In this document: positions 1-5,187 of the stretch, in pieces
Layout: the number at the start of each line of letters is the position of its first letter
Position numbering within the stretch: the first letter of the stretch is position 1
Assembly: GCA_030590765.1 (NCBI GenBank)
Contig: JAUVCP010000028.1
Span: forward strand, 1 to 11,491
Reading direction: 5' to 3'
DNA from: Flavobacteriaceae bacterium
Lineage (GTDB): Bacteria; Bacteroidota; Bacteroidia; Flavobacteriales; Flavobacteriaceae
Length of the DNA: 11,491 nucleotides
Program-made: the position numbers and the translations under genes
Notes under the pieces: generated by a model
The model's database searches: none
What the model was told of the DNA's origin: nothing
The model's input: only the letters and a program-made list of their open reading frames with translations

Positions 1-39
1 GGTTATTTTGTTGAATATACTGGTGATGTATTTGATAAA
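1..39 (+). repeat. Direct repeat copy 1 (identical to 607-645)
   Basis: All 39 bases are identical to 607-645, and the match stops at base 40, where the sequence becomes the conserved LeuC N-terminus (VWDSHIV). The copies are 606 bp apart, exactly 202 codons, and both are read in the LeuC frame. The match begins at the first base of the window, so it could continue further left. Position 607 is the native place for this peptide ([13 protein letters not shown] before MSIEGRMT). Confidence 0.95.
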
Positions 40-1412: not shown

Positions 1413-1453
1413 GCTTTATGCAATAAGCTTTAAGCATTAGGCTATAGCATTTA
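1413..1453 (+). repeat. Heptamer-phased array A1 (leuC to four-helix-bundle spacer)
   Basis: GC dinucleotides fall at 1413, 1420, 1427, 1434, 1441 and 1447, so five units of 7 nt (the last one 6) fill the spacer from 2 nt after the leuC stop to 6 nt before the next ATG. Units include GCTTTAT, GCAATAA, GCTTTAA and GCATTAG. Only GC and the period are conserved; the other five positions are mostly A/T. Positions 1418-1432 are the perfect inverted partner of 1831-1845, and 1440-1446 of 1824-1830. The function is unknown. Confidence 0.85.
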
Positions 1454-1845
1454 CAAATAATGAGAGATTTTAAAAAATATGAAGTTTGGCAATTAGGACG
1501 AAAATTTAGTTCGGCAATTTATTCCCATACGAAATATTTTCCAAAAGAAGAATTATATGGAATAACAAGTCAAATCAGAAGGGCTACCATATCAATACCA
1601 ACAAACATCAGTGAAGGGTGTGGTAGAAATAGTGATAAAGAATTTGCTCATTTTGTGAATATAGCATTAGGATCAGCTCTTGAAGTAGAAAACTTATTAA
1701 TTCTTTCAAATGATCTTTTGTATCTGGAAGATAAAATATTTAATGAATTAGAAAACGAGATAAATAAAATAAAAAGAAAATTATATAATTTACATTTAAA
1801 ATTAACAGAATAAGCCAAAAGCATATAGCCTAAAGCTTATTGCAT
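1418..1845. other. IVS-like cassette: inverted heptamer arrays enclosing the four-helix-bundle gene
   Basis: Left arm ATGCAATAAGCTTTA (1418-1432) is perfectly complementary to 1831-1845. After a 7-nt left-side bulge (1433-1439) pairing resumes for 7 bp (1440-1446 with 1824-1830). The whole coding region, start to stop codon, lies in the loop. In several bacteria, 23S rRNA intervening sequences have this shape: a base-paired stem, cut by RNase III, with a gene of the same four-helix-bundle family in the loop. That the leu mRNA behaves like this is inference. No target-site duplication was found outside the arms. Confidence 0.6.
1460..1813 (+). CDS. Four-helix-bundle protein (23S rRNA intervening-sequence / S23 family)
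   Basis: The 117-residue product is full length for the four-helix-bundle family first found in ORFs of 23S rRNA intervening sequences. Diagnostic segments are FKKYEVWQLGRKF (residues 4-16), YGITSQIRRATISIPTNISE (33-52), GRNSDKEFAHFVNIALGSA (55-73) and EVENLL (75-80), with a charged C-terminal helix (91-116). The fold is shared with Avd, the accessory protein of diversity-generating retroelements, but no reverse transcriptase or template/variable repeat is present. There is no signal peptide or membrane segment, so it should be cytoplasmic. It interrupts leuC-leuD, genes for two subunits of one enzyme, and has nothing obvious to do with leucine synthesis, which suggests insertion of a small cassette. 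Both flanks are heptamer arrays in inverted orientation. ATG 1460 matches the usual MRDFxKxEVW start. The molecular role of stand-alone members is not established. Confidence 0.9.
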   Translation: MRDFKKYEVWQLGRKFSSAIYSHTKYFPKEELYGITSQIRRATISIPTNISEGCGRNSDKEFAHFVNIALGSALEVENLLILSNDLLYLEDKIFNELENEINKIKRKLYNLHLKLTE

Positions 1846-1848
1846 TTT
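1814..1848 (+). repeat. Heptamer-phased array A2 (four-helix-bundle to leuD spacer)
   Basis: Five strict 7-nt units start at 1814, 1821, 1828, 1835 and 1842 (GCCAAAA, GCATATA, GCCTAAA, GCTTATT, GCATTTT), beginning on the base after the stop codon and ending 3 nt before the leuD ATG. The reverse complement of 1811-1845, which includes the stop codon, matches 4036-4070 at 33 of 35 positions and also matches A1 apart from one missing unit. The 11-mer AAGCCAAAAGC (1812-1822) recurs in direct orientation at 4102-4112. Confidence 0.88.
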
Positions 1849-1851
1849 ATT

Positions 1852-2448
1852 ATGGCATACGATAAATTTACAATATTAAAGAGTACAGCATATCCGCTAC
1901 CAATTGAAAATGTTGACACAGATCAGATCATTCCGGCAAGGTTTTTAAAAGCTACGGAAAGAAAAGGATTTGGAGATAATTTATTTAGAGACTGGAGATA
2001 TAATTCTGATGGATCACCTAAAACAGATTTTGTTTTGAATAATCCAAAATATAGTGGTAAAATATTATTGGGAGGTAAGAACTTTGGCTCTGGTTCGTCC
2101 CGTGAGCATGCTGCGTGGGCAGTTTATGATTTTGGATTTCGATGTGTGATCTCAAGTTTCTTTGCAGATATTTTTAAGAATAACTGTTTGAATGTAGGGG
2201 TTTTACCGGTTCAGGTAAGCGAAACATTTGCACAGGAGATCTTTGATGCCATTGAGAAATATCCAGATACTGAAATTGAAGTTGATCTTGAAAATCAAAA
2301 AGTTACTTTATTAGCAACTAACAGATCAGAAAGTTTTGAAATCAATGGCTATAAAAGAGACAATATGCTTAACGGTTTTGACGATATTGACTATTTACAA
2401 AACATGCAAAGTGATATTGAGAAATTTTCGAAATCAAGACCATTTTAA
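1852..2448 (+). CDS. leuD: 3-isopropylmalate dehydratase small subunit
   Basis: Small (swivel-domain) subunit partnering LeuC; it helps to form the substrate-binding part of the isomerase. The 198-residue product has the family landmarks VDTDQIIPARFL (21-32), then LLGGKNFGSGSSREHAAWAV (72-91), which is the loop that contacts substrate, and FADIFKNNCLNVGVLP (104-119). Length is normal for LeuD. The frame is open upstream to a TTG at 1840, but that codon lies inside the heptamer array, and ATG 1852 gives the usual MxYDKFxxL start, so 1852 was chosen. Normally leuD follows leuC directly; here the four-helix-bundle cassette separates them by 441 nt. Co-transcription within the leu operon is inferred from the common strand and lack of a terminator. 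Confidence 0.96.
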   Translation: MAYDKFTILKSTAYPLPIENVDTDQIIPARFLKATERKGFGDNLFRDWRYNSDGSPKTDFVLNNPKYSGKILLGGKNFGSGSSREHAAWAVYDFGFRCVISSFFADIFKNNCLNVGVLPVQVSETFAQEIFDAIEKYPDTEIEVDLENQKVTLLATNRSESFEINGYKRDNMLNGFDDIDYLQNMQSDIEKFSKSRPF

Positions 2449-2454
2449 CTAATT

Positions 2455-2516
2455 GCTCAAGCAAATTCGCTATAAGTTTTATGCTTATAGCCTATAGTAA
2501 AAGCATAATGCACTTC
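2455..2516 (+). repeat. Heptamer-phased array A3 (leuD to synthase spacer)
   Basis: This is the least regular array. Units begin at 2455 (6 nt), 2461 (8 nt), 2469, 2476, 2483, 2490, 2497 (6 nt), 2503 and 2510; two of them carry GT instead of GC. Positions 2469-2476 (GCTATAAG) and 2484-2491 (CTTATAGC) form a perfect 8-bp inverted repeat with a 7-nt loop. The array ends 4 nt before the next start codon. Confidence 0.75.
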
Positions 2517-2520
2517 AATA

Positions 2521-4035
2521 ATGAAAAGAAAGATTGAAATAATGGATACAACACTTCGTGATGGTGAACAAACCAGCGGAGTTTCTTTTTCTGCATCCGA
2601 AAAACTTACAATAGCCAAGCTTTTGCTAAACGAATTAAATGTTGACCGAATTGAAATTGCTTCAACAAGAGTTTCAGAAGGTGAATACCAGGCAGTTAAG
2701 AATATTTGTAACTGGGCAAATAAAAAAGGTTGTATTGATAAGGTAGAGGTGCTATCATTTGTTGATAAAGGTTTATCCATTAAATGGATGGTGGAAACCG
2801 GAGCAAAAGTGCAAAATTTGCTTACAAAAGGATCTTTGAATCATCTTACACATCAATTAAAGAAAACTCCTGAACAACATTTTGCAGAGATTGCTGAAGT
2901 AATTGAAATGGCGAGTCAAAAAGGAATAGATAGCAATGTCTACTTAGAAGACTGGAGTAACGGAATGATCAATTCGCCAGATTATGTGTATGATTTTTTA
3001 AACTTTTTATCTACCCAGAATATAAAAAGAGTTTTGTTGCCAGATACTTTAGGTGTTTTATCTCCAAGTGACAGCAGTAAATATTTACTAGATATTAGGA
3101 ATAAATTTCCGGATATGCATCTTGATTTTCATGCACATAATGATTATGACCTTGGTGTGGCCAATGTATTGGAATCTATAAAAGCAGGTGTTGATGGAAT
3201 TCATCTTACACTTAACGGAATGGGAGAGAGAGCAGGAAATGCTCCAATGGCAAGTGTTGTTGCTGTAATCAATGATTTTTTACCCGAAATTGAGATATCA
3301 GTAAATGAAAAAGCGCTTTACTCTGTAAGTAAACTTGTCGAAACTTTTTCAGGATTTAGAATCCCGGTAAATAAACCAGTACTAGGAGAAAATGTATTTA
3401 CACAAACAGCTGGAATACATGCAGATGGAGATAGTAAGAATAACTTATACTTTAATAATTTAATTCCAGAAAGATTTGCCAGAAAACGTCAATATGCACT
3501 TGGAAAAACATCCGGAAAGGCTAATATACAAAAGAATTTAGAAGAATTAGGATTGCATTTAAGCAATGAAGATGTGTTAAAAGTAACCCAGAGAATTATT
3601 GAATTAGGCGATAAAAAAGAGGTGGTTACTCAGGATGATCTCCCTTACATTATCAGTGATGTTCTTAGCAGTAATTTGTATGAGGAAAAGATCAAAGTTG
3701 ATTCTTATGTTTTAACCCATTCCAAAGGATTACGACCATCAACAACGCTTTCTGTTTCTATTGATGAAGAAAAATTTGAGGAACATGCACAGGGAGATGG
3801 ACAATTTGATGCTTTTATGAATGCATTGAGAAAAGTATATGGAAGCAAAGGATTGGAATTACCAATCTTAACAGATTACACAGTGAGAATTCCTCCTGGA
3901 TCTGCTTCTGATGCGCTATGTGAAACAGTGATCACATGGAAAAAAGGAGAAAAAACATTTAAAACAAGAGGTCTGGATTCAGACCAAACAGTTTCAGCAA
4001 TTGTGGCAACACAAAAAATGTTGAATATCATATAA
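2521..4035 (+). CDS. cimA: (R)-citramalate synthase-like enzyme with LeuA-type regulatory domain (alternatively 2-isopropylmalate synthase)
   Basis: Acyl-CoA-dependent synthase of the HMGL/LeuA family, 504 aa: TIM barrel (about 4-265), linker region, and C-terminal LeuA dimer/regulatory domain (about 385-504). Metal and catalytic residues are visible: R13-D14 in TLRDGEQ, E143, H204 and H206 in FHAHND, and N240 in GERAGN. The sequence resembles the Leptospira citramalate synthase throughout (SEKLTIAKLLL, NLLTKGSL, VYLEDWSNG, TQTAGIHADGD). By my recall of the Leptospira structure, the hydrophobic pocket selecting pyruvate is L81, L104 and Y144; the aligned residues here are L78, L101 and Y141, all identical. 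Several isoleucine-site residues are kept (L450, Y453, I457), but others differ (S463, C467, S487). Citramalate made from pyruvate and acetyl-CoA would feed LeuCD and LeuB to give 2-oxobutyrate. Many pipelines would label this leuA. The family is certain; the substrate is probable. Confidence 0.8.
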   Translation: MKRKIEIMDTTLRDGEQTSGVSFSASEKLTIAKLLLNELNVDRIEIASTRVSEGEYQAVKNICNWANKKGCIDKVEVLSFVDKGLSIKWMVETGAKVQNLLTKGSLNHLTHQLKKTPEQHFAEIAEVIEMASQKGIDSNVYLEDWSNGMINSPDYVYDFLNFLSTQNIKRVLLPDTLGVLSPSDSSKYLLDIRNKFPDMHLDFHAHNDYDLGVANVLESIKAGVDGIHLTLNGMGERAGNAPMASVVAVINDFLPEIEISVNEKALYSVSKLVETFSGFRIPVNKPVLGENVFTQTAGIHADGDSKNNLYFNNLIPERFARKRQYALGKTSGKANIQKNLEELGLHLSNEDVLKVTQRIIELGDKKEVVTQDDLPYIISDVLSSNLYEEKIKVDSYVLTHSKGLRPSTTLSVSIDEEKFEEHAQGDGQFDAFMNALRKVYGSKGLELPILTDYTVRIPPGSASDALCETVITWKKGEKTFKTRGLDSDQTVSAIVATQKMLNII

Positions 4036-4037
4036 AT

Positions 4038-4072
4038 GCAATAAGCTATAGGCTATATGCTTTAGGCTTAAA
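4038..4072 (+). repeat. Heptamer-phased array A4 (synthase to leuB spacer, first block)
   Basis: Five strict units start at 4038, 4045, 4052, 4059 and 4066 (GCAATAA, GCTATAG, GCTATAT, GCTTTAG, GCTTAAA), beginning 2 nt after the synthase stop codon. Positions 4036-4070 are an inverted copy of 1811-1845 with two A/T mismatches in 35 bases. They are in the same orientation as the left arm of the four-helix-bundle cassette, although no such gene is present here. Confidence 0.88.
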
Positions 4073-4089
4073 AAAAGTAATATAAATTA

Positions 4090-4124
4090 GCTTATGGCTC
4101 AAAGCCAAAAGCTTAAAGCTTAAA
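4090..4124 (+). repeat. Heptamer-phased array A5 (synthase to leuB spacer, second block)
   Basis: Five strict units start at 4090, 4097, 4104, 4111 and 4118 (GCTTATG, GCTCAAA, GCCAAAA, GCTTAAA, GCTTAAA), ending 4 nt before the leuB ATG. An array-free AT-rich gap of 17 nt (4073-4089) separates it from A4. The last two units are identical, the only perfect tandem pair in the window. Confidence 0.88.
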
Positions 4125-4128
4125 ATAC

Positions 4129-5187
4129 ATGAAACTAAACATAGCATTATTGGCCGGAGACGGTATCGGACCAGAAGTTATTGATCAGGCAGTAAAAGTT
4201 TGTGATGCGGTTGCAAACAAATTTAATCATACAATTAACTGGACACCTGCTTTAACAGGAGCAGCTGCGATAGATGCAGTTGGAGAGCCCTACCCTGATG
4301 AAACACATGAAATTTGTATAGCAGCAGATGCTGTCCTTTTTGGTGCCATTGGTCATCCGAGATTTGATAATGATCCAACAGCAAAAGTAAGACCCGAACA
4401 GGGACTATTAAAAATGCGTAAAAAATTAGGCTTGTTTGCTAATGTTCGTCCAACTTTTACTTTTCCTTCTTTAATTGATAATTCACCTTTAAAAAGAGAA
4501 AGAATAGAAGGAACTGATTTGGTTTTTTTACGTGAGCTGACAGGAGGTATTTATTTTGGTAAAAAAGGGCGTAAAGATAATGGTAACACTGCTTATGATA
4601 ATTGTGTTTATACCAAAGAAGAAGTTACCCGTTTGGCAAAAAAAGGTTTTGAACTTGCAATGACAAGAACTAAAAAACTATGCTGTGTTGACAAAGCTAA
4701 TGTTTTGGAAACTTCTCGTTTATGGAGAGAAACTGTGCAGAACATGGAAAAAGATTACCCTGAAGTAGAAGTAAGTTACGAATTTGTTGATGCGGTTGCC
4801 ATGAGATTGGTTCAATGGCCAAACTCTTATGATGTTTTAATTACTGAAAATCTTTTTGGGGATATACTTACAGATGAAGCCTCTGTAATTTCAGGTTCTA
4901 TGGGCTTGATGCCTTCTGCATCAGTTGGTAAAGAAAATTATTTATATGAACCAATTCATGGTTCCTATCCTCAGGCTGCTGGTAAAGACATTGCAAATCC
5001 TTTGGCAACGATATTATCAGCTGCTATGATGTTTGAAGATGCTTTCAAATTGAAAGAAGAGGCAAAAATGATCAGAGATGTTGTAAACAGATCTTTAGAA
5101 GAAGGAATTGTAACAGAAGATCTATCAGGTAATCAAAGAGCTTATAAAACAAGTGAAGTAGGTGACTGGCTTGTTGAAAATATTTAG
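4129..5187 (+). CDS. leuB: 3-isopropylmalate dehydrogenase
   Basis: NAD-dependent oxidative decarboxylase giving 2-oxoisocaproate in leucine synthesis; it also accepts beta-methylmalate in the citramalate route. The 352-residue protein is the normal LeuB length. GDGIGPEV is at 10-17, the LeuB-specific loop with RPEQGLLKMRKKL at 88-100, the catalytic Tyr at Y142 (LTGGIYFG), the catalytic Lys at K189 (VDKANVLETSRLWR), the metal-binding Asp residues at D221, D245 and D249 (DILTDEAS), and the NAD-site motif EPIHGSYP at 274-281. ATG 4129 places this motif set at standard distances from the N-terminus. It is the last gene of the operon: a hairpin terminator starts 42 nt after its stop. Confidence 0.97.
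   Translation: MKLNIALLAGDGIGPEVIDQAVKVCDAVANKFNHTINWTPALTGAAAIDAVGEPYPDETHEICIAADAVLFGAIGHPRFDNDPTAKVRPEQGLLKMRKKLGLFANVRPTFTFPSLIDNSPLKRERIEGTDLVFLRELTGGIYFGKKGRKDNGNTAYDNCVYTKEEVTRLAKKGFELAMTRTKKLCCVDKANVLETSRLWRETVQNMEKDYPEVEVSYEFVDAVAMRLVQWPNSYDVLITENLFGDILTDEASVISGSMGLMPSASVGKENYLYEPIHGSYPQAAGKDIANPLATILSAAMMFEDAFKLKEEAKMIRDVVNRSLEEGIVTEDLSGNQRAYKTSEVGDWLVENI

Follow-up and report, generated by a model that had tools for sequence, protein, structure and literature searches.

Inverted arrays of 7-nt units in a leu operon as probable ends of a small element around a four-helix-bundle gene

Contig C110, the 11,491-base stretch of DNA analysed here in full (the window), belongs to a genome of 2.44 Mb in 400 contigs, estimated to be 67% complete. 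It carries a leu operon whose spacers contain phased 7-nt units anchored on the dinucleotide GC, and these arrays border an open reading frame (ORF) for a 117-aa four-helix-bundle (4HB) protein of the S23 type. We consider it likely that the arrays form the inverted ends of a small element around this gene, similar in type to an intervening sequence (IVS), and not a feature of the leu operon. Indeed, comparison of sequences across many loci establishes that arrays of this kind accompany 4HB genes, that they are mostly inverted, and that their motif and unit length are shared with the protein lineage across sites. The window genes concerned are leuC, the 117-aa ORF, leuD, a leuA-type synthase gene and leuB, where the leu names derive from Pfam matches. 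The features of the element and its relatives in the neighbouring spacers are the following.

1413..1442, + strand: up-type (5') arm of the 4HB element, with five GCs in phase (1413, 1420, 1427, 1434, 1441), the first GC lying 2 nt past the leuC stop
1418..1432, + strand: 15-nt exact reverse complement of 1831-1845, mostly paired with it in the predicted fold of 1408-1855
1460..1813, + strand: 4HB/S23-type gene, 117 aa, PF05635 23S_rRNA_IVP (E 4.2e-38), between leuC and leuD
1814..1843, + strand: down-type (3') arm, five GC units in phase, immediately 3' of the 4HB stop codon
1831..1845, + strand: partner of 1418-1432 in the stem predicted around the 4HB ORF by RNA folding
2469..2511, + strand: irregular, probably decayed, ORF-less pair of up and down arms in the leuD-leuA spacer (9-bp stem, z -1.66), with no significant phased GC run
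4038..4067, + strand: up-type five-unit arm of an ORF-less pair in the leuA-leuB spacer, a phased GC run (13 of 20,000 spacer shuffles)
4090..4119, + strand: down-type five-unit arm of the same leuA-leuB pair, a phased GC run ending 9 nt 5' of the leuB start (hairpin z -1.85)

Runs of exactly five GCs at 7-nt spacing begin at positions 1413, 1814, 4038 and 4090. The next-longest run at this spacing in the whole window has three GCs (at 4904), which agrees with an initial annotation that placed no arrays in the spacers around genes it called GH92, GH3 and GH109. When spacers were shuffled with dinucleotide frequencies preserved, a run of five appeared in 5 of 20,000 shuffles of 1411-1459, 2 of 20,000 of 1814-1851 and 13 of 20,000 of 4036-4128, and only three of 2,000 whole-window shuffles contained any run of five. 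The comparison with shuffled spacers that the annotation had proposed thus rules out a chance origin for three spacers. It does not do so for the leuD-leuA spacer (2449-2520), where the longest in-phase run is two, a value equalled by 9,330 of 20,000 shuffles and therefore not above chance. The claim that all four leu spacers are arrayed accordingly stands for three, the fourth being array-like only by comparison with relatives. Likewise, the first array had been drawn to 1447, although the run ends with the GC at 1441 and the GC at 1447 lies only 6 nt further, out of phase. As had been described, the units within the four runs are not identical, and period and GC are held.

The pattern had also been said to read the same on both strands, which is true of the palindromic GC core, whereas the remaining unit positions are directional. 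All eight units examined at 1413 and 4038 conform to GC-N-N-T-A-N. Those at 1814 and 4090 have A at position 5 in 8/8 cases and GC-Y-T-A in 4/8, the latter being the reverse-complement type found in the unit table of relatives. Because GC-class units are directional by this same rule, the leuA-leuB spacer can be read as an ORF-less pair in which the up arm precedes the down arm.

Two further PF05635 genes are present in the genome of the window. The GC runs near them do not exceed two, and other degenerate arrays of 7-nt units lie on both sides of each gene, the 3' array resembling by eye the reverse complement of the 5' array. The presence of 7-nt arrays of other motifs beside these sibling genes suggests that the GC units are a single instance of a wider pattern, which belongs to the 4HB family. 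The annotation had expected more arrays elsewhere in the genome, and in a sample of 118,999 bases (20 contigs) one more five-unit run was found. This up-type GC array (L014:10498-10527, on contig C11 of genome G000) begins 2 nt past the stop codon of a gene that we take, from its sequence, to be peptidase-like, and lies 27 nt from the contig end. Runs of at least four units at periods 5, 6, 8, 9 and 10 numbered 0, 0, 0, 1 and 0 in this sample. Strict array calls in an own-genome sample numbered three at period 7 and eight at period 9.

Among loci of the same genus, a full 4HB gene with arrays occupies the leuC-leuD spacer of the window and of genome G003. This spacer contains a remnant in G021 and, in G016 and G019, arrays of other motifs without an ORF. 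It measures 9-58 nt at 12 of 19 same-genus loci, where no arrays are seen by eye. The leuD-leuA spacer lacks about 41 nt in G021 that are present in G016. This patchy presence suggests that arrays come and go and that the leu genes function without them. The first 39 bases of the window (1-39) exactly repeat 607-645 inside leuC and then diverge, which is probably an assembly end artefact.

To place these arrays in a wider setting, 4HB loci were drawn from relatives of the window protein, named species genomes, a hand-picked set, plasmids and the window's phylum, where 298 of the 395 genomes sampled had a PF05635 match. From 115 relatives of the window protein, the best were taken as the 80 named loci, the relative and phylum sets consist of best scorers, 60 loci were hand-picked from among the relatives listed, and the plasmid set comprises 12 of 24 plasmid records. 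Repeated proteins, flanks shorter than 50 nt or containing N, and three loci before the comparison of arm similarity were left out of the counts. Since the selection of loci is biased, counts were also made per site and per protein cluster. Thresholds for calling arrays were chosen after the pattern had been seen, and other periods were run at identical thresholds.

For 110 distinct 4HB loci, identity at a lag of 7 nt was 0.515 in the upstream flank (104 usable) and 0.555 in the downstream flank (101), compared with about 0.29 in shuffles, and identity was also raised at lags of 14, 21 and 28. Period-7 arrays were called upstream in 84 and downstream in 96 of these 110 loci, while periods 5, 6 and 8-11 gave at most 7/110. 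The hand-picked loci yielded period 7 upstream in 29 and downstream in 35 of 60, and period 8 in 14 and 10. The corresponding figures for 30 phylum loci were 19 and 19 at period 7 and 7 and 5 at period 8, and period-7 arrays were found upstream in nine and downstream in nine of the 12 plasmid loci. Of 210 distinct loci, 152 have a joint best period of 7, 18 of 8, one of 6 and one of 9. The existence of the period-8 class led us to drop period 7 as a universal property. By eye, the arrays of L185, L190, L194 and L197 look like 8-nt units. The idea that GC is an essential letter pair was similarly dropped, as only 85 of the 210 loci fall in the GC class and other 4HB lineages use other motifs. 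The links to four-helix-bundle genes and to operon junctions that the initial annotation had suggested both hold across these loci.

The two arms of a locus are related mainly by inversion. For 98 non-GC loci (of 180), the mean similarity score of the up arm is 15.2 with the reverse complement of its own down arm, 9.0 with the down arm read directly and 7.9 with the arm of another locus, and inversion is favoured in 80 of the 98. A polarity in base composition is also evident, wherein the up arm is G-rich in 109 of 125 non-GC loci, the down arm is C-rich in 101, and both hold in 88. In the GC class the consensus is GC-T-N-T-A-A for up units and GC-C/T-T-A-A-A for down units.

Arm motifs also follow the protein. 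Pairs of loci at different sites have an arm similarity of about 9 where 4HB identity is below 0.5, and this value then rises through 12.5 (1307 pairs) and 16.7 (242 pairs) to 19.8 at identities of 0.7-0.8 (23 pairs), equal to the value of 19.3 for arms at the same site. Three pairs above 0.8 (L202/L212, L212/L213 and L034/L038) and the 0.8-1.0 different-site bin were set aside because each probably represents one site whose next gene is clipped. When mapped on the protein tree, the GC class requires 12 changes (minimum of 58 in 100 shuffles) and the choice between periods 7 and 8 requires eight (minimum of 16). Related 4HB proteins at different sites have related arms, as in L196/L216 (0.79) and L190/L194 (0.74), and 30 pairs of related 4HB proteins, the three set aside included, have unlike downstream genes.

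The sites themselves are diverse, in that 207 loci fall into 81 downstream-gene clusters. One downstream gene is common to 65 of the 207 and is presumably groEL, to judge by its N-terminus; a groES label in 4HB loci is likewise our assumption from sequence. Both neighbours were called in 79 of the 81 site clusters; they run in the 4HB direction at 67, are both opposed at six and are mixed at six. A strict sense orientation was therefore abandoned, since opposed cases exist, plasmids among them.

Arrays also occur away from 4HB genes. ORF-less pairs of up and down arms, like that of the leuA-leuB spacer, recur elsewhere. At L063:4516-4790, upstream of the 4HB gene, there is an ORF-less series of five-unit up and down arms in steps of about 41 nt, and L262:634-849 (in genome G009) is a composite array with several heptad motifs in succession, largely in 7-nt phase. 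Strict period-7 calls per 400 kb numbered one and three in two same-genus genomes without a 4HB match, 19 in G009 (11 matches) and seven in G028 (16 matches), where the G+C contents are 0.38, 0.38, 0.31 and 0.45, respectively. The same four samples gave 6, 5, 13 and 10 calls at period 6 and 13, 23, 22 and 14 at period 9. Because these are as high or higher, the raw counts alone prove little, and this comparison of two genomes with two others of differing G+C is suggestive only of dispersed arrays being commoner where 4HB genes are present.

The commonest number of units per array is five. In the GC class the longest phased run is exactly five in 51 of 82 up arms and 47 of 82 down arms, where shuffles mostly reach two; in other period-7 loci this applies to 26 and 21 of 66, and in period-8 loci to 6 and 5 of 18. 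When each protein cluster is counted once, five again ranks first (25 of 56 clusters). Beyond 200 nt from a 4HB gene, GC runs of at least four (783 kb, 80 loci) comprise 15 of five units and eight of four units, and none is longer. Six loci account for the 15 five-unit runs, of which L063 contributes six and leu operons nine.

The protein offers a possible counterpart to this number. PF05635 is the sole Pfam family matched by the 117-aa protein, in which no nuclease family and no Y1-type transposase was matched, and its sequence relatives 2gsc (E 4.7e-16) and 2rld (E 0.0015) have five chains each. A Xanthomonas member of the family is reported to be a homopentameric toroid (PMC4990558). The five-unit peak, the five-chain relatives and the homopentamer family together led us to hypothesize that one unit corresponds to one protomer. 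By analogy with ring proteins that read spaced sites, we tentatively propose that each protomer of the 4HB ring binds one unit of the array, such that period and unit number would be held while other bases drift. It is conceivable, though we hold the idea with some reserve, that this extends to a widespread family in which a pentameric ring reads an array of five units of 7 nt (8 nt in some lineages) at both ends of its gene, with a co-evolving motif. As part of that same tentative proposal, the IVSs of rRNA and some of the heptamer repeats of cyanobacteria, xanthomonads and Bacteroidota might be members or relics of the family.

The element would have the layout of an up array, a 4HB/S23 gene and a down array of reverse-complement motif, with five 7-nt units being commonest. 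A full copy would occupy the leuC-leuD spacer in operon sense, with ORF-less versions between leuA and leuB and, decayed, between leuD and leuA. When the RNA between the leuC stop and the leuD start is folded, the arrays pair around the ORF (-82.1 kcal/mol, z -2.26, with three of 100 shuffles as good), and the other two leu spacers fold as hairpins (z -1.85 for leuA-leuB and -1.66 for leuD-leuA). In the transcript, the arms probably pair into a stem that encloses the ORF. As with rRNA IVSs, RNase III may cut this stem and so leave the host cistrons usable. The protein and its arms would spread or be inherited as a unit.

Several observations weigh against this interpretation or parts of it. 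The folding z-scores given above are modest. Own arms of the GC class are no more complementary in register than those of other loci (33 loci, 0.615 versus 0.612, p 0.39), and 18 up-side pairs give 0.600 for own arms versus 0.609. Pair-specific complementarity within the GC class was consequently dropped, and it is the unit motif, not exact pairing, that appears to be constrained, which weakens the stem as a selected feature. Inversion has no overall advantage in the GC class (14.2 inverted versus 15.0 direct, favoured in only 47 of 82 loci), because the GC core is palindromic. Among the 98 non-GC loci, 18 show no preference for inversion and 12 do not score above the arms of other loci. A clear joint period is lacking in 38 of 210 loci, and a period-7 call is lacking on both sides in 9/110 and 20/60 loci, some of which have 8-nt units. 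Both neighbours are opposed at 6 of 79 sites, of which three are annotated plasmid cases and one is an rRNA gene, where ORF calls are meaningless. No transposition was caught and no target duplication was mapped, nor did any one genome yield recent copies at two sites with a clean junction. As for the number five, the cyanobacterial locus L163 has 14 and 15 units, and one report gives mostly four full units for Xanthomonas heptamer arrays, a count that could, but need not, correspond to five anchors (PMC4692102).

The arrays were first noticed as a property of the leu operon, and a leucine-responsive factor that binds phased GC units in each spacer would account for their position beside stop and start codons and for the presence of arrays in several leu spacers, here and in L116, L119, L120, L125 and L129. 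This explanation now seems scarcely credible and was dropped after the same-genus comparison and the recovery of many non-leu sites. No array is seen by eye in the leuC-leuD and leuD-leuA spacers of 12 of 19 same-genus leu loci (a set that includes the window; leuA-leuB unseen), GC-class arrays surround 4HB genes ahead of the presumed groEL (65 of 207 loci) and follow the gene taken to be peptidase-like in the same genome, and 207 loci are spread over 81 downstream-gene clusters. Very improbable, too, is an origin as neutral AT-rich minisatellites, in which slippage would make and degrade 7-nt repeats with no link to a protein. Drifting units, ORF-less arrays in some genomes (including perfect ones in G009) and the variation of array copy number between Coxiella strains (PMC4990558) are what slippage would produce, and far from 4HB genes the 110 loci give 111 period-7 calls against 90-93 at periods 6, 8 and 10 and 174 at period 9. 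Yet slippage does not predict arms that are inverted, that track the protein lineage across sites and that peak at five units instead of decaying.

Two further readings retain a role for the protein. In one, which overlaps with the explanation that we favour, the 4HB ring would bind both ends as double-stranded DNA and help a host enzyme to move the unit. We regard this as rather unlikely, and equally so its corollary that ORF-less pairs relate to the unit as REPINs do to RAYT, being non-autonomous copies. A single motif inverted at both ends suits one DNA-binding protein, and ORF-less pairs such as the 41-nt-step series in L063, together with the antisense cases in plasmids, are in keeping with movement as DNA. 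The bias toward operon sense (67/79), a protein that matches PF05635 only and no nuclease family, and the RNA-level excision reported for rRNA members (PMC4990558) point the other way. The other reading treats the 4HB gene as an ordinary operon gene whose arms are solely an autoregulatory RNA site and not the ends of an element. Although the arms adjoin the 4HB start and the downstream gene common to 65 of 207 loci looks old and vertical, we judge this improbable, since the down arm also extends to the next host gene, related 4HB proteins at different sites (the L196/L216 and L190/L194 pairs) have related arms, and presence in the leuC-leuD spacer is patchy within one genus. An IVS-type element with inverted array ends remains the explanation that we prefer. 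If it is true, three puzzles would be joined, namely rRNA IVSs with a protein to which no function is assigned, heptamer repeats in spacers, and very common 4HB genes; the PF05635 family would gain a concrete putative ligand, and the period and length of the repeats would be explained.

Some known systems resemble the element in part. In REP/RAYT systems and REPINs, a single gene is bounded by inverted short repeats that also occur as dispersed hairpins. The window element similarly has a gene bounded by inverted repeats and ORF-less pairs elsewhere, but RAYT is a Y1-type transposase and the 4HB protein, matched by PF05635 only, is not, for which reason RAYT was ruled out. TRAP is an 11-mer ring in which each protomer reads one (G/U)AG of a regularly spaced RNA array with short spacers. 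The 4HB family differs in being pentameric and in having 7-nt units, and its binding of the array is putative. CRISPR was excluded because the arrays consist of degenerate 7-nt units head to tail and not of near-identical longer repeats with spacers, and because no matching gene is present. Separately, in the cyanobacterial plasmid loci L163, L167 and L173 a 4HB gene lies inside CRISPR operons (cas6-4HB-cas4 twice and cas10-4HB-cmr3). L163 and L173 have heptamer arrays on either side of the gene, and L167 has a long upstream repeat.

The statement in the initial annotation that no standard feature class fits was too strong, in that the arrays resemble both published intergenic heptamer repeats and the stem arms of 23S rRNA IVSs. 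The published repeats share tandem 7-nt intergenic units with the window and differ in heptamer sequence, the window units being GC-anchored and drifting. Thus, the TAACTGA direct repeats of Beggiatoaceae, Cyanobacteria and some Bacteroidetes are likewise 7-nt tandem units, mostly intergenic, often near start codons and with mixed heptamers, but are described as one exact heptamer that possibly forms translational sites (PMC4679880). The Xanthomonas GGGAATC and Nostoc GGGGA(T/C)T heptamers are also mostly intergenic, and 70-75 GGGAATC pairs per Xanthomonas genome are inverted, like the arms here; unlike in our reading, the source treats these heptamers as G-quadruplex repeats (PMC4692102). The terms "S23" and "four helix" are absent from the main text of the papers on both the TAACTGA (PMC4679880) and the GGGAATC repeats (PMC4692102). 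X. campestris is also the source of XCC0516, a relative of solved structure. In the literature searched, which included little of the subscription literature, there was no statement that 4HB/S23 genes are generally bounded by inverted heptad arrays. The parts are known there as single cases, such as heptamers beside one IVS ORF, and the general rule was not found.

The likeness to 23S rRNA IVSs with S23p, such as that of Coxiella, extends to the protein family, a unit of about 0.43 kb and complementary, stem-forming borders, as given in the published account (PMC4990558). The same account describes the Coxiella IVS as a parasitic element with three tandem heptamers just 5' of the S23p start codon, the copy number of which differs between strains, and reports excision at the RNA level for family members in rRNA. 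In the window, a PF05635 ORF (E 4.2e-38) and borders sharing a 15-nt exact inverted repeat match this organization. Unlike the rRNA IVSs so described, the window copy is situated between leuC and leuD, in an mRNA spacer and not inside an rRNA gene; it carries an array at either end, and the neighbouring spacers contain ORF-less relatives. A bridging case is a 4HB gene (L171) from an Azospirillum lipoferum plasmid, which is situated inside a large-subunit rRNA gene and whose borders look by eye like inverted heptad arrays. On the basis of this rRNA-embedded relative and the Coxiella heptamers, we read the leu copy as an IVS-type element in an mRNA spacer, one that probably works like an IVS and that, being outside rRNA, is not filed as an rRNA IVS.

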